Positions 6,385 to 15,402 of a stretch of 64,000 bases of DNA are shown piece after piece. Position 1 is the stretch's first letter. Each line of letters starts with the position of its first letter. The notes below the pieces were generated by a model. It saw only the letters and a list, made by a program, of their open reading frames with translations, was not told where the DNA came from and made no database searches. Source of the stretch: Vibrio cyclitrophicus (GTDB taxonomy: Bacteria > Pseudomonadota > Gammaproteobacteria > Enterobacterales > Vibrionaceae); NCBI RefSeq assembly GCF_024347435.1, contig NZ_AP025480.1, positions 2,046,001-2,110,000 on the forward strand. Reading direction: 5' to 3'. Made by a program: the position numbers and the translations under genes.

Positions 6385-6648
6385 ATGTTTGTAGTTATTT
6401 TTGGTCGCCCAGCTTGCCCATTCTGTGTTCGTGCAAAAGAGCATGCTGAAACTCTTAAAGCGAAGCGTGATGATTTCAACTACCGTTATGTTGATATTCA
6501 CGCTGAAGGCATCAGCAAAGCTGACCTGGAAAAAACTGTAGGTAAGCCGGTAGATACAGTGCCACAAATTTTCATCGACCAAGACCACATTGGCGGTTGC
6601 ACAGAATTTGAAGCATACGCAAAAGAAAAATTAGGCCTTTTTGACTAA
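6385..6648 (+). CDS. grxA: glutaredoxin 1
   Basis: An 87-residue glutaredoxin that reduces disulfides, for example in ribonucleotide reductase and OxyR, using glutathione. The active site is Cys11-Pro-Phe-Cys14 (GrxA usually has CPYC), followed by the cis-proline region DTVPQIFID and the GGCTEF glutathione-binding turn. Length and order match GrxA. The start has a good ribosome site (AGGAGA). Its own terminator hairpin at about 6728-6746 has been split by the insertion sequence that follows. Confidence 0.93.
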   Translation: MFVVIFGRPACPFCVRAKEHAETLKAKRDDFNYRYVDIHAEGISKADLEKTVGKPVDTVPQIFIDQDHIGGCTEFEAYAKEKLGLFD

Positions 6649-6734
6649 GATAAATTGTCTCTTACGAGCATCGAGGTTAAAGCCTTAAGCAGCTAACCAG
6701 TTTACCGTTAGACTGTCAGATTTATATAAAGCCC

Positions 6735-6746
6735 GCTCCCTGTAGC
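6735..6746. repeat. left target duplication of IS copy 1
   Basis: GCTCCCTGTAGC, repeated exactly at 8188-8199. It is the 6-nt loop CCCTGT plus three stem base pairs on each side of the former grxA terminator. Confidence 0.9.
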
Positions 6747-6755
6747 CAACACCTA

Positions 6756-8093
6756 TCATTTAAGGTGTTTAGATCGCACAGTGTAGCGAGTCTTACTAAA
6801 ACGAACGGTCCTACCTTTGGGCCGTTTTTGTTTTTCGGGCAAAATATAACGTTTCACTCGCTCTCTCATAGCTCGCAGCTTTTTGGGAATAGAACCTGGA
6901 GAAGCGATAGCACACCACATTAGCTCATCTTGAATATCTCGAAGTGCCATCGTAAAGCTTATCCTAAGTGGTGAGACTTCTGCCTCTTTTGCTATTCGGC
7001 TAATCTCCAGACGGATTAAGTTATACGCGATAAGGATACCCCATATCTCTTGCTTTACACCCTCTACAGATTGACTGCGGAGCAGAATTTCATCTTCAAG
7101 CATGTCATGCTTAATCTCGCCATAACTCTTCTCGATTTCCCACCTTTCGAAGTACACGTCTAATAATGATTTTAAACTGTATTTTCTATCTGTTAGAGAA
7201 GTCAGCAGCCCTTGTATATGATTGGGTTGTTGTTCACCATCATCGGGGTATAGAGCCAGCCTAGCTTTCCACGTTTCCGGGAGGCTCGGGTCTTGCTTTC
7301 TAGCTTGTGGAGAGACTTTCATCTCTACAATCAGATCTCGCCCATCATCATCGAGTTGCTCGATGGTTTCATACTTCACATTCGACTTTATGGGCGTCAT
7401 CCAGTGACTTGTCCCATGCTCTCGTTGCCAGTTAAGCATAAGCTCTGCGCTCAGGTAGCAACGGTCAAAAATGGTCAATGAATTCGGGACAGCTGATGAA
7501 ATTAAATCTTTTGCATAGCTAATTTCACCTTTAGAACTTTCCCCAAAAGCCACATCATGAATAAGTCGACTCCGTAGGGATGTGAGTGCGCACATTCGAA
7601 CGATTGGATATTCAGTGTGCCTGTCTTTTCGGTAGTAAACATATTGATAATGCTCAGCTAAGCTTGGGTTATCGTGCGTTCTAAACTGTGTGCCATCAAT
7701 TGAAAATAGGCTCAAACCATTCCATTTATCACCCGCATCTTCCGACTGTGTCCAGTGCTTTGCTGTGATTGAGAATAATGACTCTAAAGGTTTAGCGGTG
7801 AGGCGCTTTCTCGCCTGGGGAATCGCACTAGGTGCAATAGACTCACCCAATGAGTTAGACAATTTGAGGTCGAGTTTATCGAGTACATCGGTAATCGGTC
7901 TATCTCGATAGAGACCAATACCAACGACTAACCATACAACAAGTTCGGCAGGTAACTTTCTACGACGCATACTCGCTTTGTTCGTTTCAGATAAAGCTTG
8001 GTTTATCCAATCTAGCGGAAGGTCTTTTTGGAACAAAGAAAGAGATTCTGGATTAGCAAAATCGTCAACATCGATTAACCAGTGTGACAGCAT
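6756..8093 (-). CDS. IS4-family DDE transposase, copy 1
   Basis: A 445-residue transposase when started at the ATG just after the leader hairpin; the frame is open 15 codons further up, but those codons lie within the hairpin. An N-terminal IS4 domain (motif RRRKLPAELVVWLVVG) precedes a DDE catalytic domain. The likely catalytic residues are Asp133 (SIDGTQF), Asp210 (FDRCY) and Glu321, the last in the IS4 signature Y-x2-R-x3-E-x6-K. The frame is intact, so the element may be active. It has Ile where copy 2 has Val (KQE-I/V-WGI). It is transcribed towards grxA. Confidence 0.9.
   Translation of the reverse strand: MLSHWLIDVDDFANPESLSLFQKDLPLDWINQALSETNKASMRRRKLPAELVVWLVVGIGLYRDRPITDVLDKLDLKLSNSLGESIAPSAIPQARKRLTAKPLESLFSITAKHWTQSEDAGDKWNGLSLFSIDGTQFRTHDNPSLAEHYQYVYYRKDRHTEYPIVRMCALTSLRSRLIHDVAFGESSKGEISYAKDLISSAVPNSLTIFDRCYLSAELMLNWQREHGTSHWMTPIKSNVKYETIEQLDDDGRDLIVEMKVSPQARKQDPSLPETWKARLALYPDDGEQQPNHIQGLLTSLTDRKYSLKSLLDVYFERWEIEKSYGEIKHDMLEDEILLRSQSVEGVKQEIWGILIAYNLIRLEISRIAKEAEVSPLRISFTMALRDIQDELMWCAIASPGSIPKKLRAMRERVKRYILPEKQKRPKGRTVRFSKTRYTVRSKHLK
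6804..6835 (+). terminator. terminator-like hairpin in the IS right end, copy 1
   Basis: AACGGTCC pairs with GGGCCGTT (one G-U pair) around a 7-nt loop, followed by a T-rich tract, TTTTTGTTTTT. It lies within the last codons of the transposase but is oriented to stop transcripts entering from grxA, whose own terminator was split. The function is inferred from structure. Confidence 0.6.
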
Positions 8094-8097
8094 AAAA

Positions 8098-8129
8098 AAT
8101 ACCCTTAAACAGAAGTGCTTAAGGGTATT
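8098..8129 (-). promoter_or_regulatory. leader hairpin sequestering the transposase ribosome site, copy 1
   Basis: A perfect 11-bp stem (AATACCCTTAA / TTAAGGGTATT, 10-nt loop) followed by T residues ends four bases before the transposase ATG. The only ribosome-site-like bases, AAGGG, are in its 3' arm. A transcript entering from outside should terminate there or fold with the start site hidden. See copy 2 at 11706-11737. Confidence 0.6.
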
Positions 8130-8187
8130 GTCAACCATCTGCAGGATCGTTCAACTGATCAGGAAAATGCTTAAATGATCAGTGTTA

Positions 8188-8199
8188 GCTCCCTGTAGC
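8188..8199. repeat. right target duplication of IS copy 1
   Basis: An exact copy of 6735-6746 (GCTCCCTGTAGC). The bases GGGCTTTTT that follow are the remaining 3' arm and T tract of the former grxA terminator. Confidence 0.9.
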
Positions 8200-8349
8200 G
8201 GGCTTTTTCATAACAAGTTTTCGTACCGAATAAGAATCAGGTCAAAATCAAGTAAAATAGCAAAATATCGCTTATAATTTATTTATATTTAGATACAATT
8301 CACCTCTCAAACTTACCCTGTGTTTCACGCCAATTATTGAGCGACCACT

Positions 8350-10032
8350 GTGAATATCGACGTTGTTTTTCTGCTAGAACAAAACCCTATCCTTCTCATC
8401 TTTGTTGTTTTATCGATTGGTTTAGCCATTGGTAAAATTCGTTTCGGTAGCCTCCAACTCGGCAACTCAATCGGTGTTCTGATTACTTCCCTTATCATGG
8501 GACATCTGGGTTTTTCGTTTAATGCAGATGCGCTCACTATTGGCTTTATGCTCTTCATTTACTGTGTTGGTATCGAAGCCGGGCCTAATTTCTTCGGTAT
8601 CTTCTTCAGAGACGGTAAGCATTACCTTATTCTTAGCCTTGTCGTACTCTCTACCGCAATTGCTTTAACGTATTTCAGCAGCCACTACCTTGGTTTAGAC
8701 TTTGGCTTATCAGCAGGCATGATGGCGGGAGCCCTAACGGCAACGCCGATATTAGTTGGTGCTCAAGATGCTCTCAATTCTGGGATTGCAGAATTACCAA
8801 GAAATATGGATTTAGGTTTGATCATCGAAAACCTTTCTGTGGGTTATGCGATGGCTTACTTAGTCGGCTTAATCAGTATGATTATGTTCGCTCGCCTCAT
8901 TCCAAAACTTCAAAAAGTAAACCTGCATGACTCAGCAGAGCAAATCGCTCAAGAACGCGGTCTAGGGGCATCTGGCCAACGTAAGGTTTATCTTCCAATA
9001 ATTCGTGCTTACCGCGTGGGACCAGAGCTTATATCTTGGACAGACGGTAAGAACCTGCGTGAACTAGGTATCTATCGTCAAACGGGTTGTTACATTGAAC
9101 GTATTCGCCGTAACGGTATTCTCGCCCACCCTGATGGTGACGCAATTTTGCAAGAAGGCGATGAGATTGCATTGGTAGGCTTCCCTGATAGCCACGCTCG
9201 TCTCGACCCAAGCTTCCGTAATGGTAAAGAAGTTTTCGACCGTAACCTTCTCGATCTACGAATCGTAGAAGAAGAGATCGTCGTTAAAAGTGACAATATC
9301 GCAGGTAAACGTCTTTCAGATCTCAATCTGTCTGAGTATGGCTGTTTCCTTAACCGCGTAGTTCGAGCTCAAATTGAAATGCCGATGGACTTAAACATCG
9401 TGCTTTCCAAAGGCGACGTGCTGCAAGTGAGTGGTGAAAAGAGTCGTGTTCACGGCTTAGCTGAGAAAATTGGTTTCATCTCGATCCACAGCCAAATGGC
9501 AGACTTGATGGCTTTCTGTAGCTTCTTCATTCTGGGCATTTTGTTTGGTTTGATCACCATGACATTCGGTCAGGTTTCGTTTGGCTTAGGCAATGCAGTC
9601 GGCCTGCTATTGTCGGGGATCATGCTTGGCTTCTTAAGAGCAAACCACCCTACCTTTGGTTACGTACCTCAGGGTGCGTTAAACATGGTCAAAGACCTCG
9701 GTTTGATGTTCTTTATGGTCGGTATAGGTTTAAGCGCCGGTGGCAAGATATTCGAGCACTTAACCCAAGTTGGACCACAGGTCATTGGTATTGCTCTGGT
9801 GGTGAGTGTTCTACCAGTATTCTTCGCCTACTTGGTCGGCGCTTATGTGCTGAAGATGAACCGAGCTTTATTATTTGGAGCCATCATTGGCGCTCGAACC
9901 TGCGCGCCTGCGATGGATATCGTAAACGACCACGCTCGCTCAACCATTCCGGCTCTGGGTTATGCAGGTACCTATGCGATAGCCAATATATTGATGACCT
10001 TAGCGGGTACCTTCATCATCATTATTAGCTAA
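8350..10032 (+). CDS. ybjL: YbjL-type aspartate:alanine exchanger family transporter
   Basis: A 560-residue inner-membrane protein of the AspT/YidE/YbjL family. Two hydrophobic AspT-type halves (about residues 10-185 and 380-560) flank a soluble part containing two RCK/TrkA-C-like domains (about 205-375). Each membrane half has a conserved acidic or glycine-rich turn ([21 protein letters not shown]), a sign of internal duplication. The sequence resembles E. coli YbjL along its length. AspT itself exchanges aspartate and alanine; the substrate of YbjL orthologues is not established. It starts with GTG. In E. coli it also neighbours grxA; here an insertion sequence separates them. Confidence 0.85.
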
Positions 10033-10070
10033 TCTCTTAGGTGTTAAGAGCGCTTTAGGTTAGATATTTT

Positions 10071-10108
10071 TAATGCACTAATTCACCTTTGGATTAGTGC
10101 ATTTTTAT
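10071..10108 (+). terminator. intrinsic terminator after ybjL
   Basis: An 11-bp stem, AATGCACTAAT / ATTAGTGCATT, with a 10-nt loop and a following T tract (TTTATTA). It lies about 40 bases after the ybjL stop. Confidence 0.85.
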
Positions 10109-10203
10109 TACTCGTTATATTCTTCTCTTTCCCTATCTTTCTCATCTGTCTTTTAGCTCTCTGCGCATATCAAATCAGCTCGTCATTTTTCTCAAACTAC
10201 AGA

Positions 10204-10237
10204 TAAAAAAATAGGCGCTCAATGAGCGCCTATTTCG
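10204..10237 (-). terminator. intrinsic terminator after fabV
   Basis: The stem AAATAGGCGCTCA / TGAGCGCCTATTT with a very short loop has a run of T on the minus strand, about 20 bases beyond the fabV stop. Confidence 0.85.
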
Positions 10238-10256
10238 TTTTATTCGATTGTTCGAA

Positions 10257-11459
10257 TTAGATGTCAGCTACATCAAATTCAACCGCTGTATCAACGTCGG
10301 CTTCGTAATCCACACCTTCAACACCAAAACCGAATAACTTCAAGAACTCTTCTTTGTACTCGACGTAGTCTGTCAGTTCTTTTAGGTTTTCAGTTGTGAT
10401 TTGAGGCCATAGGTTACGGCAATGTTCTTGGATGTCGTCACGAAGTTCTAGGTCGTCTAGGCGTAGACGGTTCACTTCATCAACTTCTGCAGCGCTACCG
10501 TCTTCTTTGTATAGACGTTGGCTGAACATGCGGAAGATCTGTTCCATACAACCTTCGTGGATACCTTCTTCACGCATCTTCTTGAACACCATAGCGATGT
10601 AAAGAGGCATAACAGGGATAGCCGAGCTTGCTTGAGTCACAACAGACTTAAGAACAGCAACGTTTGCTGTACCGCCAGTTTGGCCTAGCTTCTCGTTTAG
10701 CACTGATGCTGCACGGTCTAGATCCATCTTCGCTTTACCTAGCGCGCCATCCCAGTAGATTGGCCACGTTAGTTCAGTACCGATGTAGCTGTAAGCAACT
10801 GTCTTACAACCGTCAGCTAGAACACCAGCTTCTGAAAGTGCGTTGATCCAAAGTTCCCAATCTTCACCGCCCATTACAGTAACAGTGTCTTTAATCTCTT
10901 CTTCAGTAGCAGGCTCTACGCTTGCTTCAATGATCAGGTCTTTGTTCGTATCAACAGCCGTTGATGTGTATGTTTCACCGATAGGTTTTAGAGCTGAACG
11001 AATCACTTCACCAGTCTCTGGCATTTTACGCACTGGAGATGCCAGTGAGTACACAACCATATCGATTTGGCCTAGATCTTCTTTGATCAGGTCAATTGTT
11101 TTCTGTTTCGCTTCGTTAGAGAAAGCATCACCATTAAGGCTCTTTGAATACAGGCCTTCTTCTTTAGCAAGCTTGTCGAACGCTGCTGAGTTGTAATAAC
11201 CAGCTGTGCCCGGCTTTTTCTCAGTACCGGCTTTCTCGAAGAAAACACCGATAGTTGAAGCGCCGCCACCAAATGCAGCCGCAATACGTGAAGACAAGCC
11301 GTAGCCACTTGAAGAGCCAACAACTAATACACGTTTAGGTGCGTTTGCGATTGGGCCTTGAGCTTTTGTGTAAGCAATTTGTTCTTTTACATTAGCTTCA
11401 CAACCGACTGGATGTGTTGTAGTACAGATGAATCCGCGAATTCGAGGTTTGATGATCAT
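10257..11459 (-). CDS. fabV: enoyl-ACP reductase FabV
   Basis: NADH-dependent trans-2-enoyl-ACP reductase that catalyses the last step of each fatty-acid elongation cycle. The 400-residue protein opens with [20 protein letters not shown], has the NAD-binding turn [22 protein letters not shown], and carries the FabV active site Y-x8-K. From the ATG at 11459 these residues are Tyr235 and Lys244, the numbering published for V. cholerae FabV, which supports this start over the TTG at 11465. The ribosome site GGAAG lies 6 nt upstream. FabV enzymes are generally insensitive to triclosan. The second IS copy ends 188 bp upstream, leaving a short promoter region. Confidence 0.93.
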
Positions 11460-11637
11460 ATTCAACTTCCTTAAAAAATCAGGTTAAGGATAAAAGTTTC
11501 GTACGCAAATGGCATCTAATTTCTGTAAAAATGTGGTGAAAATGCAAGTGGTTGGAGCACTCAACTGATATTTGCTGACTAAGTCACCATTTGTTAACGC
11601 ATCTATTGCGACTTCTGCGACAAAAACAAAAAAGGCA

Positions 11638-11647
11638 CCTTATTAGG
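11638..11647. repeat. left target duplication of IS copy 2
   Basis: CCTTATTAGG, repeated at 13089-13098. It equals the 4-nt loop TATT plus three stem base pairs on each side of the former fadE terminator. Confidence 0.9.
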
Positions 11648-11705
11648 TAACACTGATCATTTAAGCATTTTCCTGATCAGTTGAACGATCCTGCAGATGG
11701 TTGAC

Positions 11706-11737
11706 AATACCCTTAAGCACTTCTGTTTAAGGGTATT
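11706..11737 (+). promoter_or_regulatory. leader hairpin sequestering the transposase ribosome site, copy 2
   Basis: A perfect 11-bp stem (AATACCCTTAA / TTAAGGGTATT), loop GCACTTCTGT, followed by TTTT and then ATG at 11742. The AAGGG ribosome site (11729-11733) lies in the 3' arm, 8 nt before the ATG. A TTGACA box at 11701 lies just outside the stem and may be the -35 of a native promoter whose transcript would start inside or after the hairpin; its -10 is not clear. Confidence 0.6.
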
Positions 11738-11741
11738 TTTT

Positions 11742-13079
11742 ATGCTGTCACACTGGTTAATCGATGTTGACGATTTTGCTAATCCAGAATCTCTTTCTTT
11801 GTTCCAAAAAGACCTTCCGCTAGATTGGATAAACCAAGCTTTATCTGAAACGAACAAAGCGAGTATGCGTCGTAGAAAGTTACCTGCCGAACTTGTTGTA
11901 TGGTTAGTCGTTGGTATTGGTCTCTATCGAGATAGACCGATTACCGATGTACTCGATAAACTCGACCTCAAATTGTCTAACTCATTGGGTGAGTCTATTG
12001 CACCTAGTGCGATTCCCCAGGCGAGAAAGCGCCTCACCGCTAAACCTTTAGAGTCATTATTCTCAATCACAGCAAAGCACTGGACACAGTCGGAAGATGC
12101 GGGTGATAAATGGAATGGTTTGAGCCTATTTTCAATTGATGGCACACAGTTTAGAACGCACGATAACCCAAGCTTAGCTGAGCATTATCAATATGTTTAC
12201 TACCGAAAAGACAGGCACACTGAATATCCAATCGTTCGAATGTGCGCACTCACATCCCTACGGAGTCGACTTATTCATGATGTGGCTTTTGGGGAAAGTT
12301 CTAAAGGTGAAATTAGCTATGCAAAAGATTTAATTTCATCAGCTGTCCCGAATTCATTGACCATTTTTGACCGTTGCTACCTGAGCGCAGAGCTTATGCT
12401 TAACTGGCAACGAGAGCATGGGACAAGTCACTGGATGACGCCCATAAAGTCGAATGTGAAGTATGAAACCATCGAGCAACTCGATGATGATGGGCGAGAT
12501 CTGATTGTAGAGATGAAAGTCTCTCCACAAGCTAGAAAGCAAGACCCGAGCCTCCCGGAAACGTGGAAAGCGAGGCTGGCTCTATACCCCGATGATGGTG
12601 AACAACAACCCAATCATATACAAGGGCTGCTGACTTCTCTAACAGATAGAAAATACAGTTTAAAATCATTATTAGACGTGTACTTCGAAAGGTGGGAAAT
12701 CGAGAAGAGTTATGGCGAGATTAAGCATGACATGCTTGAAGATGAAATTCTGCTCCGCAGTCAATCTGTAGAGGGTGTAAAGCAAGAGGTATGGGGTATC
12801 CTTATCGCGTATAACTTAATCCGTCTGGAGATTAGCCGAATAGCAAAAGAGGCAGAAGTCTCACCACTTAGGATAAGCTTTACGATGGCACTTCGAGATA
12901 TTCAAGATGAGCTAATGTGGTGTGCTATCGCTTCTCCAGGTTCTATTCCCAAAAAGCTGCGAGCTATGAGAGAGCGAGTGAAACGTTATATTTTGCCCGA
13001 AAAACAAAAACGGCCCAAAGGTAGGACCGTTCGTTTTAGTAAGACTCGCTACACTGTGCGATCTAAACACCTTAAATGA
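11742..13079 (+). CDS. IS4-family DDE transposase, copy 2
   Basis: A 445-residue intact transposase, identical to copy 1 except for one Ile-to-Val change. It has an N-terminal IS4 domain, then catalytic Asp133, Asp210 and Glu321 with the Y-x2-R-x3-E-x6-K signature. It is transcribed towards the 3' end of fadE. The ATG at 11742 follows the leader hairpin; the longer frame from 11697 would be translated through that hairpin and lacks a ribosome site. Confidence 0.9.
   Translation: MLSHWLIDVDDFANPESLSLFQKDLPLDWINQALSETNKASMRRRKLPAELVVWLVVGIGLYRDRPITDVLDKLDLKLSNSLGESIAPSAIPQARKRLTAKPLESLFSITAKHWTQSEDAGDKWNGLSLFSIDGTQFRTHDNPSLAEHYQYVYYRKDRHTEYPIVRMCALTSLRSRLIHDVAFGESSKGEISYAKDLISSAVPNSLTIFDRCYLSAELMLNWQREHGTSHWMTPIKSNVKYETIEQLDDDGRDLIVEMKVSPQARKQDPSLPETWKARLALYPDDGEQQPNHIQGLLTSLTDRKYSLKSLLDVYFERWEIEKSYGEIKHDMLEDEILLRSQSVEGVKQEVWGILIAYNLIRLEISRIAKEAEVSPLRISFTMALRDIQDELMWCAIASPGSIPKKLRAMRERVKRYILPEKQKRPKGRTVRFSKTRYTVRSKHLK
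13000..13031 (-). terminator. terminator-like hairpin in the IS right end, copy 2
   Basis: The same structure as at 6804-6835: AACGGTCC / GGGCCGTT plus a T-rich tract, read on the minus strand. It meets transcripts running out of fadE and could replace the fadE terminator broken by this insertion. Confidence 0.6.
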
Positions 13080-13088
13080 TAGGTGTTG

Positions 13089-13098
13089 CCTTATTAGG
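13089..13098. repeat. right target duplication of IS copy 2
   Basis: An exact copy of 11638-11647 (CCTTATTAGG), followed by TGCCTTTT, the other arm of the former fadE terminator. Confidence 0.9.
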
Positions 13099-13119
13099 TG
13101 CCTTTTATCGTTTCTTTAT

Positions 13120-15402
13120 CTAAGCAACGCTATTTAGCTTAGGTTTTAACTCTTTTCGCGTCAAAGTTTCACTAAAGTCATGACTGAAGTGGTCAACTTG
13201 AATCGCGGTGTAACGCAGTTTATCAGCAGCGACAATTTGGTCGACTTCTTCTTGCGTTAGAACATCGGCAGCAAGTGCTTGAGCCAGTTTGTCGGCCAGC
13301 AAGCCTTTACGAGCCACTTTGCCTTCTTTCACTGCTTTGAAGATCTTACGTTCCAGAGGCTTGATGCTGTACATCGCGTTAAAAGCGTTCTCCATAAGAC
13401 CAATACTGTCATCCTCTTCCTTGCCGATGTAGCAAAGATGAGTCAGACGTTCACGGTGCGCTCCCGGAGTCATCAAGCTTTCAGCTAATTGAACCGTTAG
13501 ATTGTCACTCGGTTTTTCAAAGTGGTTACCTACAGGGAAAACTAAACCTTTCAGCACTTTCCCAACCATCTTGTTAGGGAAGTTACGGTACGCTTCTTGT
13601 AGTGACTTAGCCGCATTGTGGAAACAGTGTTGAACTGCGTAGTGTACGTAGTCTAGATCAGCTTGTTGACGACCTTCATCCTCGTACTTCTTAAGCGCAG
13701 CCGAAGCCATGTATAGGTAACTTAGGCCATCGCCCAAACGTGCAGAGATAAGTTCTTTACGTTTCAGCTCACCACCTAGCGTCAGCATTGCGAAATCCGC
13801 ACTGACAGCAAGCGCACGGCTCAAACGAGTTAGATCTTGGTAGTAAGGTTTCGTTGGACCACTCATGTCGGCTTTAATAAATTTAGAGCCAGTTAATGCT
13901 GCACCAAAAGCACCGAATGTGTTCTTAGTTGCGTGTGAGATATGCTTGAACAACAAGCTATCAAAGTCTTTTGCACCTTGCTTCTCATCTGGGTTCGCAG
14001 CCGCTTCCATTTCGCTCAATACGTATGGGTGACAACGTGTCGCACCTTGACCGAAGATCATCAGGTTACGAGTTAGAATGTTCGCACCTTCTACTGTGAT
14101 TGCAACTGGAATACCTAGGTAAGGCGCAGCCAAGTAGTTCATTGGGCCATCTTGAATTGCACGACCTGAATGGGTATCCATTGAGTCATTCAAAATAGTA
14201 CGTGCCATTTCTGTCATGTGATATTTCGCGATAGCCGTTACGATACCCGGCTTCTCTTTCATATCAAGTGAAGTGGTTGTCAGTGTACGAGTCGCTTCTA
14301 ATAGATACGTTAAGCCACCAATACGGCCTAGGCTCTCTGCAACACCTTCAAACTTACCAATCGACATACCGAACTGCTTACGAACATAAGCGTACGCACC
14401 GGTCGTTTTCGCTGTTAGGTGGCCCATCGCCGTGCCAAGTGCGGGTAATGAGATACCGCGACCTGCAGACAGACATTCCACCAGCATACGCCAGCCTTTA
14501 CCTGCGTAATCTGCGCCACCGATTAGCCATTCCATAGGAATAAATACATCGTGACCGCGTGTTGGACCATTCATAAACGCAAGACCAAGTGGATCATGAC
14601 GCTCACCGATCACAACACCTTCGTGGTCTGCTGGGATAAGCGCACAAGTGATACCGATGTCTTCTTTGTCACCCAGTAGCTTTTCTGGATCGTGCAGTTT
14701 GAAAGCCAGGCCAAGTACCGTAGCCACTGGTGCTAGCGTAATGTAACGCTTGTTCCAGTTAAGCTTGATGCCAAGTGTCTCTTTGCCTTCGTGCATACCC
14801 ATACACACAGTGCCTACATCAGGGATACCGCCTGCATCAGAACCCGCTTCAGGGCCTGTTAATGCGAAACATGGTATATCTGTACCGTCAGCTAGACGTG
14901 GAAGCCAGTAATCTTTTTGAGCTTGAGTACCGTAGTGAGACAGTAGCTCACCAGGCCCAAGAGAGTTTGGAACCATTACCGAAACCGCAGTACTGATACT
15001 GCGAGTCGCAATCTTAGTTACGATAGTAGAGTTTGCGTGCGCTGAAAATTCACGACCGCCGTATCCTTTCGCAATAATTAACGAGAAGAAACGCTCTTTG
15101 CGTAAGAAGTTCCAAACTTCCTCGGGAAGGTCTCGGTCTTCTTTTACAATTTGGTGGTCATCAAGCATAGCGAGCAGGGTCTCAAGTTCATTGTCCATGA
15201 ACGATTGCTCTTCTGCTGTTAGCTGAGGTTTTGGATATTGATGCAGCTTAGTGAAATCTGGTTTACCAGAAAACAGCTCTCCGTCCCACCAAACACTACC
15301 CGCTTCCATCGCTTCTTTCTCGGTGCTAGATAGTGGTGGTAGTACTTTTTTAAAGAGTTTAAAAGCTGGGTCACTTACCCATTTTTGTCTTAGAGAGCTC
15401 AT
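13120..15402 (-). CDS. fadE: acyl-CoA dehydrogenase FadE
   Basis: FAD-dependent acyl-CoA dehydrogenase that starts each beta-oxidation cycle by forming the trans-2 double bond. The 760-residue protein has the acyl-CoA dehydrogenase core (FALTGPEAGSDAGG flavin/substrate loop at about 178-191, then the helical C-terminal domain) and a long extra C-terminal region typical of FadE (DUF1974). E. coli FadE is about 814 residues; this form is shorter and lacks the N-terminal hydrophobic segments. The ribosome site AAGGATC supports ATG 15402. An imperfect inverted repeat, TTCAC-N10-GTGAA (15419-15438), lies just before the start. It lies 55 bp downstream of a TetR gene on the same strand, a probable operon. 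Confidence 0.92.
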   Translation of the reverse strand: MSSLRQKWVSDPAFKLFKKVLPPLSSTEKEAMEAGSVWWDGELFSGKPDFTKLHQYPKPQLTAEEQSFMDNELETLLAMLDDHQIVKEDRDLPEEVWNFLRKERFFSLIIAKGYGGREFSAHANSTIVTKIATRSISTAVSVMVPNSLGPGELLSHYGTQAQKDYWLPRLADGTDIPCFALTGPEAGSDAGGIPDVGTVCMGMHEGKETLGIKLNWNKRYITLAPVATVLGLAFKLHDPEKLLGDKEDIGITCALIPADHEGVVIGERHDPLGLAFMNGPTRGHDVFIPMEWLIGGADYAGKGWRMLVECLSAGRGISLPALGTAMGHLTAKTTGAYAYVRKQFGMSIGKFEGVAESLGRIGGLTYLLEATRTLTTTSLDMKEKPGIVTAIAKYHMTEMARTILNDSMDTHSGRAIQDGPMNYLAAPYLGIPVAITVEGANILTRNLMIFGQGATRCHPYVLSEMEAAANPDEKQGAKDFDSLLFKHISHATKNTFGAFGAALTGSKFIKADMSGPTKPYYQDLTRLSRALAVSADFAMLTLGGELKRKELISARLGDGLSYLYMASAALKKYEDEGRQQADLDYVHYAVQHCFHNAAKSLQEAYRNFPNKMVGKVLKGLVFPVGNHFEKPSDNLTVQLAESLMTPGAHRERLTHLCYIGKEEDDSIGLMENAFNAMYSIKPLERKIFKAVKEGKVARKGLLADKLAQALAADVLTQEEVDQIVAADKLRYTAIQVDHFSHDFSETLTRKELKPKLNSVA

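Follow-up and report, generated by a model that had tools for sequence, protein, structure and literature searches.

A Vibrio cyclitrophicus insertion sequence of the IS4 type that targets terminator stem-loops, with a duplication length best read as half-site spacing

Two copies of a 1441-bp insertion sequence (IS), assigned to the IS4 family, lie in a 64,000-nucleotide stretch of the Vibrio cyclitrophicus genome (contig NZ_AP025480.1, positions 2,046,001 to 2,110,000, hereafter the window). The element targets terminator stem-loops. Its target duplication varies in length, and the variation is mostly explained by the target sequence. The best reading of its length is the distance between two inverted half-sites that terminators happen to carry, and extruded hairpins are unnecessary to explain it.

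Insertion into terminator stem-loops

The host genome contains 13 full copies of the element, the home copies. Empty sites were reconstructed by deleting the element and one copy of the duplication, and in 13 of 13 cases a predicted intrinsic-terminator hairpin was restored, each in a different terminator. By open reading frame (ORF) prediction only, all home copies are intergenic; each lies beside one or more ORFs whose 3′ end points towards it, and at 6 of 13 sites both neighbours are oriented in this way. The home duplications are 10 bp in six copies, 11 bp in five, and 12 bp and 13 bp in one each.

Relatives were collected from overlapping sets of 227 genomes of the genus, 329 of the family and 394 of the order, together with a genome-contig collection, plasmids, phages and E. 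coli genomes. Ninety distinct sites with a matching duplication (10–15 bp) were resolved: 57 of the query class (the element together with relatives whose transposases are at least about 65% identical), 20 of an IS4-like class, 10 of relB (about 45% identity), two of relC and one of relD. The IS4-like sites comprise 12 from E. coli or its phages and eight from the Vibrio-group genome G029. The E. coli sites come from 16 of the 40 matches listed, out of 2,706 records, and from two phages; the K-12 site was counted once for six records, and the eno terminator twice, as two alleles. Fourteen rows with recognisable ends and no matching duplication were excluded (among them L078, L021, L157, L158, L160, L164, L172, a relD copy and three relC copies), as were many fragments and contig-edge copies.

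A hairpin was called strong at a score of at least 7, and its centre was allowed to lie up to 1.5 bases from the centre of the duplication, for sites and random positions alike. Such a hairpin was found at 77 of the 90 resolved sites, in several genera (query class 46/57, IS4-like 18/20, relB 10/10, relC 2/2, relD 1/1), and at all 13 home copies. The two centres coincide exactly in 59 of the 77 and differ by at most one base in the remainder. Chance does not account for the targeting: in the same test a comparable hairpin is centred on 157 of 20,000 positions drawn at random from the host genome, and on 68 of 5,000 drawn from non-coding sequence. As a further control, 20 copies of three other IS types were taken from two of these genomes; none of the 15 resolved copies lies on such a hairpin. 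The other five could not be resolved, and two of the three types have uncertain ends.

These controls bear on the view that insertion is random and that copies persist only in harmless 3′ intergenic sites. The position of the 13 home copies beside the 3′ ends of genes fits that view. The low frequency of centred hairpins at non-coding positions and their absence from the resolved copies of the other IS types speak against it, as does the single-base precision of insertion, with C at position −2 in 112 of 114 half-sites of the query class (see below). Survival bias as the sole cause is ruled out by the non-coding and other-IS controls, and we give the view almost no credence.

Nine wider plasmid relatives were kept outside the 90-site counts and judged by eye. 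Five of them (L219, L221, L224, L226 and L227) are at terminator sites; no duplication was found for L219, although terminator arms flank the element. E. coli IS4 is present in two lambda-like phages, and a search of viral contigs (IMG/VR) returned no relatives of the element.

The two window copies are in opposite orientation and differ at 2 of 1441 positions. They and their surroundings are as follows.

6747..8187, minus strand: IS copy 1, IS4 subgroup, 1441 bp
6735..6746, unstranded: copy 1 target duplication, left, GCTCCCTGTAGC, 12 bp
8188..8199, unstranded: copy 1 target duplication, right, GCTCCCTGTAGC, 12 bp
6728..6734, plus strand: left outer arm of the split grxA-side terminator (copy 1), AAAGCCC, the half-site with C at −2
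8200..8208, plus strand: right outer arm of the split grxA-side terminator (copy 1), GGGCTTTTT
11648..13088, plus strand: IS copy 2, IS4 subgroup, 1441 bp
11638..11647, unstranded: copy 2 target duplication, left, CCTTATTAGG, 10 bp
13089..13098, unstranded: copy 2 target duplication, right, CCTTATTAGG, 10 bp
11630..11637, plus strand: left outer arm of the terminator split by copy 2, downstream of the fadE-like gene, AAAAGGCA
13099..13106, plus strand: right outer arm of the same terminator (copy 2), TGCCTTTT
6385..6648, plus strand: grxA (glutaredoxin), 3′ end facing copy 1
13120..15402, minus strand: fadE-like acyl-CoA dehydrogenase gene, 3′ end facing copy 2

The first-pass annotation of the window held that both copies split an intrinsic-terminator hairpin, and this proved correct to the base. 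The reconstructed empty sites on the grxA and fadE sides give the same hairpins that it had described, and its duplication lengths of 12 and 10 bp were confirmed. Nine of the sister-genome loci fetched were aligned, five at the copy 1 site and four at the copy 2 site. For copy 1 the stem is unbroken in three of five loci, with one or two loop bases changed; of the other two, one has a different hairpin and one alignment ends before the site. For copy 2 the stem is unbroken in four of four, with loop bases changed in two of them.

Several further observations were made in the collection. The same terminator was struck by different elements in different genomes (L012/L015/L108 and L068/L117), so that these are insertion hot spots; the terminator with GCTCATTGAGC was struck twice by the query element, in separate genomes (L012, L015), and once by relB in yet another genome (L108). 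The flanks of L078, L021, L157, L158, L160, L164 and L172 share no duplication, and many are still terminator-like halves; recombination between copies is the probable origin of such unmatched flanks. A query-like copy at G029:C1:2850907-2853749 (L112, L049) is split, its matches to nt 1–1165 and 1156–1441 lying about 1.4 kb apart, and was apparently interrupted by another insertion. Another Vibrio-group genome carries a 384-residue rve-type element (L240, L242, L244–L250) with the near-constant target CCCTGT|TCCG and an apparent 2-bp duplication.

Half-sites and the length of the duplication

In both window copies the duplication equals the loop plus three base pairs on each side, as the first-pass annotation had noted, and this relation does not hold as a general rule. 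With the loop defined by maximal pairing and a minimum of three bases, the duplication minus the loop at the 46 strong query sites is 6 in 25, 8 in 12, 7 in four, 4 in three and 5 in two; at the 13 home sites it is 6 in six, 8 in three, 7 in two, 4 in one and 5 in one. 'Loop + 6' as a law is therefore ruled out, being exact in 25 of 46 strong query sites and 6 of 13 home sites. The check suggested in that annotation, to collect the copies and rebuild their empty sites, thus bore out the terminator stem-loops (13/13 home, 46/57 query class) and failed for the length.

A sequence motif, read from outside inwards as AAAA(R)CC^GC, lies at the edge of the duplication. The 46 strong query sites supply 92 half-sites, of which 89 have A at −6, 90 have A at −5, 91 have C at −2 and 81 have C at +2. 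All 26 home half-sites have C at −2. The base is also kept where the hairpin is weak, in 21 of 22 half-sites (11 sites). In L104, one of the weak-hairpin sites, AAGCC and GGCTT stand exactly 15 bp apart and the duplication is 15 bp.

A matrix built from the 11 weak-hairpin sites only places the exact edge in 78 of the 92 hairpin half-sites, where 'loop + 3 pairs' succeeds in 54. It gives the exact duplication length in 36 of 46 sites (rho 0.84), against 25 of 46 (rho 0.46) for loop plus six. In the reverse direction, scoring with the matrix from the strong sites ranks nine of the 11 weak-hairpin sites above at least 99.9% of 100,000 random pairs; the remaining two, L056 and L080, outscore about 99.2%. 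A matrix from the other genomes tested on the home copies finds 20 of 26 edges, against 15 for loop plus three, and both edges in 9 of 13 sites against 6 of 13. In the IS4-like class the length tracks the distance from A-tract to T-tract (rho 0.77, n = 15), and its correlation with loop size (rho 0.23) is not significant. The claim of the first-pass annotation that the variable length is not looseness was upheld.

The cause proposed there was recognition by the transposase of an extruded hairpin or cruciform, or of a site prone to form a hairpin, with cleavage at a set number of pairs below the loop. The strong hairpins at 77 of 90 sites with their coinciding centres agree with it, the loop alone places 54 of 92 edges and correlates with length, and relC, which has no preference for terminators, still inserts at the centre of a REP-like palindrome (REP, repetitive extragenic palindrome). 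However, the duplication minus the loop spans 4 to 8 at the 46 strong query sites, the half-site persists at weak-hairpin sites, which serve as better predictors of the cuts in hairpins than loop size, and half-sites are much better in terminators that were hit than in others. We consider hairpin reading unlikely, and loop size or an extruded structure did not stand as what sets the length. The accompanying idea of 'palindrome symmetry' with a fixed cutting place came close to the two inverted sequence half-sites found.

The half-sites also explain the choice of terminators. When the matrix from the other genomes was scanned over 464 kb of the host genome, 17 places reached the 10th percentile of home scores, and 15 of these are strong hairpins. 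The best half-site pair has a median score of 21.8 in the terminators hit and −3.0 in 105 other terminator-like hairpins (p 1.6e-8), of which 40 have a best pair with C(−2)/G(+2). Terminators with good half-sites are thus preferentially chosen from the terminator pool. Sequence guides the element to terminators and chooses among them, and therefore pairing need not be read. Guidance by transcription machinery paused at terminators, and not by DNA sequence, would also accord with home sites that are terminators downstream of genes. It appears improbable, still more so than hairpin reading, since half-sites are present at weak-hairpin sites and the cuts closely track sequence.

Several points weigh against reading the duplication as half-site spacing in terminators. 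The decisive weak-hairpin set is 11 sites, several of them partly palindromic, and sequence and structure are largely confounded because most matches are hairpins. A matrix from the 13 home sites only, applied to other genomes, finds 43 of 66 edges, barely above the 39 of loop plus three, and has both edges correct in 16 of 33 sites against 18 of 33. The half-site is looser in the 20 sites of the IS4-like class, with C or G at −2, and in relB (n = 10) the length correlates significantly with neither spacing nor loop. Four of the nine wider plasmid relatives are off clear terminators by eye (L220, L222 and L225 are not at one, and L223 is weak). Terminator function, for host and element hairpins alike, is predicted from sequence, and we infer the replacement of termination.

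The element and its inward hairpins

The transposase genes and the inward terminator-like hairpins of the two copies are as follows.

11742..13079, plus strand: transposase gene, copy 2; Nterm_IS4 and DDE_Tnp_1 domains; D133, D210, E321; Y(2)R(3)E(6)K
6756..8093, minus strand: transposase gene, copy 1; 445 residues from the ATG after the T-run, by position from copy 2
11706..11737, plus strand: inward terminator-like hairpin, transposase-gene end, copy 2; 14 pairs, then TTTT ATG
13008..13032, minus strand: inward terminator-like hairpin, far end, copy 2; 9 pairs, then TTGTTTTT; inside the end of the transposase gene
8098..8129, minus strand: copy 1, inward terminator-like hairpin on the side of the transposase gene; position transferred from copy 2
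6803..6827, plus strand: copy 1, inward terminator-like hairpin at the far end; position transferred from copy 2

An alternative 460-residue form of the copy 1 transposase starts at 8138. The transposase scores 93.3 bits with Nterm_IS4 (cut-off 25), 75.9 with DDE_Tnp_1 (cut-off 23) and 250.7 with NF033592, the NCBI model of IS4 family transposases (cut-off 115). The spacers of D133/D210/E321, 76 and 110 residues, fall within the D(60-110)D(100-150)E range of the family, and its Y(2)R(3)E(6)K signature is present as YFERWEIEKSYGEIK at residue 314 (PMC2266710). The transposase is encoded in a single ORF, as expected of the family along with the curated profile matches, and the duplications of the 13 home copies (10–13 bp) have the length of about one helical turn that also characterizes it. 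The ends TAACACTGATCATTTAAG and CAACACCTATCATTTAAG are identical at 15 of 18 positions and, compared by eye with TAATGCCGATCAGTTAAG of E. coli IS4, are IS4-like with the first base relaxed. These sequence features place the element in the IS4 family and, within it, in the IS4 subgroup; the family as defined in that paper also has cut-and-paste transposition. The element is probably active. A sigma-70 scan of 11500-13200 found two promoter-like sites against 3.5 expected.

A separate terminator scan of copy 2 found three hairpins against 1.5 expected, namely the two at the ends and a weaker inner one. The same layout was sought in 19 representative elements picked by ungapped comparison, which include at least two near-duplicate pairs (L001/L012 and L050/L064). 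A hairpin with T-run scoring at least 8 is present at the transposase end in 16 of 19 and at the other end in 18 of 19. Two of the three elements missed at the transposase end, L018 and L137, do fold into a hairpin of this kind, in which the loop is longer or the T-run weaker; the third, relC, has a weak hairpin there (5.4) and none at the other end. The nine wider plasmid relatives all have inward hairpins at both ends. Random starts gave 32 of 1,500; the control windows were the first 100 nt and the elements were scanned up to 260, with the matches (≥8) lying within about 93 nt. Conservation was judged from per-element folds, as the MAFFT alignment misaligns distant hairpins. The layout is constant across lineages while the stem sequences vary.

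The predicted folding energies at the 13 home sites are −17.1 kcal/mol (median) for the host hairpins, −17.2 and −13.6 for the element's own, and −3.7 and −6.1 for the terminator remnants after insertion. The end hairpins are thus predicted to be about as strong as the host hairpin that is broken. The pair may shield the transposase gene from outside transcription and replace the broken terminator. The 3′ arm of the hairpin before the transposase gene contains a Shine-Dalgarno-like AAGGG (region 11706-11742), and sequestration of the translation start of the transposase in outside transcripts is therefore also possible.

Proposed mechanism and comparison with known systems

In the proposed mechanism the transposase would select its target by sequence. 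The sequences of the element and its near relatives show insertions between two inverted AAAA(R)CC^GC half-sites 10–13 bp apart (15 once), with one element end joined at each ^. The duplication is the stretch that separates the two half-sites, so that its length follows their spacing. In the host genome such pairs are mostly found in the A-tract/GC-stem/T-tract arms of near-symmetric intrinsic terminators, and the element therefore lands in terminators, centred on the loop. Each active site may set its own strand-transfer point from its own half-site in double-stranded DNA, and bending or flexing of the target may allow spacings that depart from one helical turn by about 1–2 bp. The inward hairpins seen in the sequence at both ends would block incoming transcription, thereby keeping the transposase gene quiet and replacing the destroyed terminator, so that insertion would be nearly neutral. 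This whole explanation, with target choice by sequence, a duplication set by spacing and built-in replacement terminators, seems to us quite probable.

A broader view is about evenly balanced in our estimation. It holds that these elements form a terminator-specialised lineage with a target-read duplication length, matched inward terminators and low-cost spread, and that the trait belongs to the IS4 subgroup as a whole and was lost, together with strong end terminators, in a branch targeting repetitive extragenic palindromes (REPs). On this view the trait spans Vibrio, Photobacterium, Shewanella and E. coli IS4, and Acinetobacter, Burkholderia, Pantoea and Klebsiella add one case each.

The usual description of DDE transposases is of cutting with a fixed stagger, and variable duplications are put down to looseness. 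With the variation mostly explained by the target, there is a directly testable rule for the independent positioning of the two active sites. A widespread IS group, E. coli IS4 included, tends toward gene ends, and the restoration of terminators is suggested to avoid harm to the host. The finding bears on annotation, where split terminators are concerned, on how changes in expression linked to an IS are interpreted, and possibly on the design of programmable insertion into the ends of genes.

The REP-targeting relative, relC, is an IS4-family element of 38% identity in genome G304, the coordinates of which match Photobacterium sp. GJ3. It inserts at the centre of the REP-like palindrome ATTCC[CGCCTGCGCG]GGAAT with a 10-bp duplication (copies L148, L151 and L152; also L142, L145 and L154 without an exact duplication), and it is without strong end terminators, unlike its terminator-targeting kin. 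Among the elements seen only relC has a REP family as its target; the home element occupies 13 different terminators.

ISRm22 of the IS4 family was reported to insert in REP palindromes (Tobes and Pareja 2006, PMC1525189). It resembles the present element as an IS4-family element found in palindromes, and differs in having REP repeats instead of terminators; relC behaves like it. Since relC and ISRm22 both lie in palindromes, inverted target arms seem to be a general feature of this part of the family, the arm sequence differing from lineage to lineage. The precedent named in the first-pass annotation, the palindrome-targeting IS3-family elements IS1397 and ISKpn1, is apt, and ISRm22 is a nearer one (PMC1525189). 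IS1397 and ISKpn1 are alike in inserting into palindromic repeats and unlike in that their enzymes are unrelated.

The element shares with the IS4 subgroup (De Palmenaer et al. 2008, PMC2266710) the transposase family, the ends, the one-ORF layout and duplications of about one helical turn. Target-arm specificity in the subgroup was already noted in that paper, and the published target-arm consensus (Figure 3, PMC2266710) may already contain the half-site motif. It differs from our account in that the part of the published text covered does not use the word 'terminator' or tie the variable length to half-site spacing. Our literature search found no report of terminator targeting by IS4-type elements or of the spacing rule; its coverage of subscription journals was thin, and absence in print is not established by it. 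A study of IS neighbourhoods (PMC9208149) proved to have no bearing on the question.

Symmetric G+C half-sites at the duplication edges are also found with IS231A (GGG-N5-CCC, a bent target), IS10 (NGCTNAGCN) and IS186 (GGGG-N6-8-CCCC), the last of which also has a variable spacing. The motif of these three is shorter than the one described here. We know of no terminator targeting by any of them. Group IIC introns do insert at terminators. They use RNA pairing, and their enzymes are unrelated to those of the IS4 type. The present element thus belongs to a known family and subgroup, and what appears to be new here is its target-choice behaviour and its paired end hairpins.

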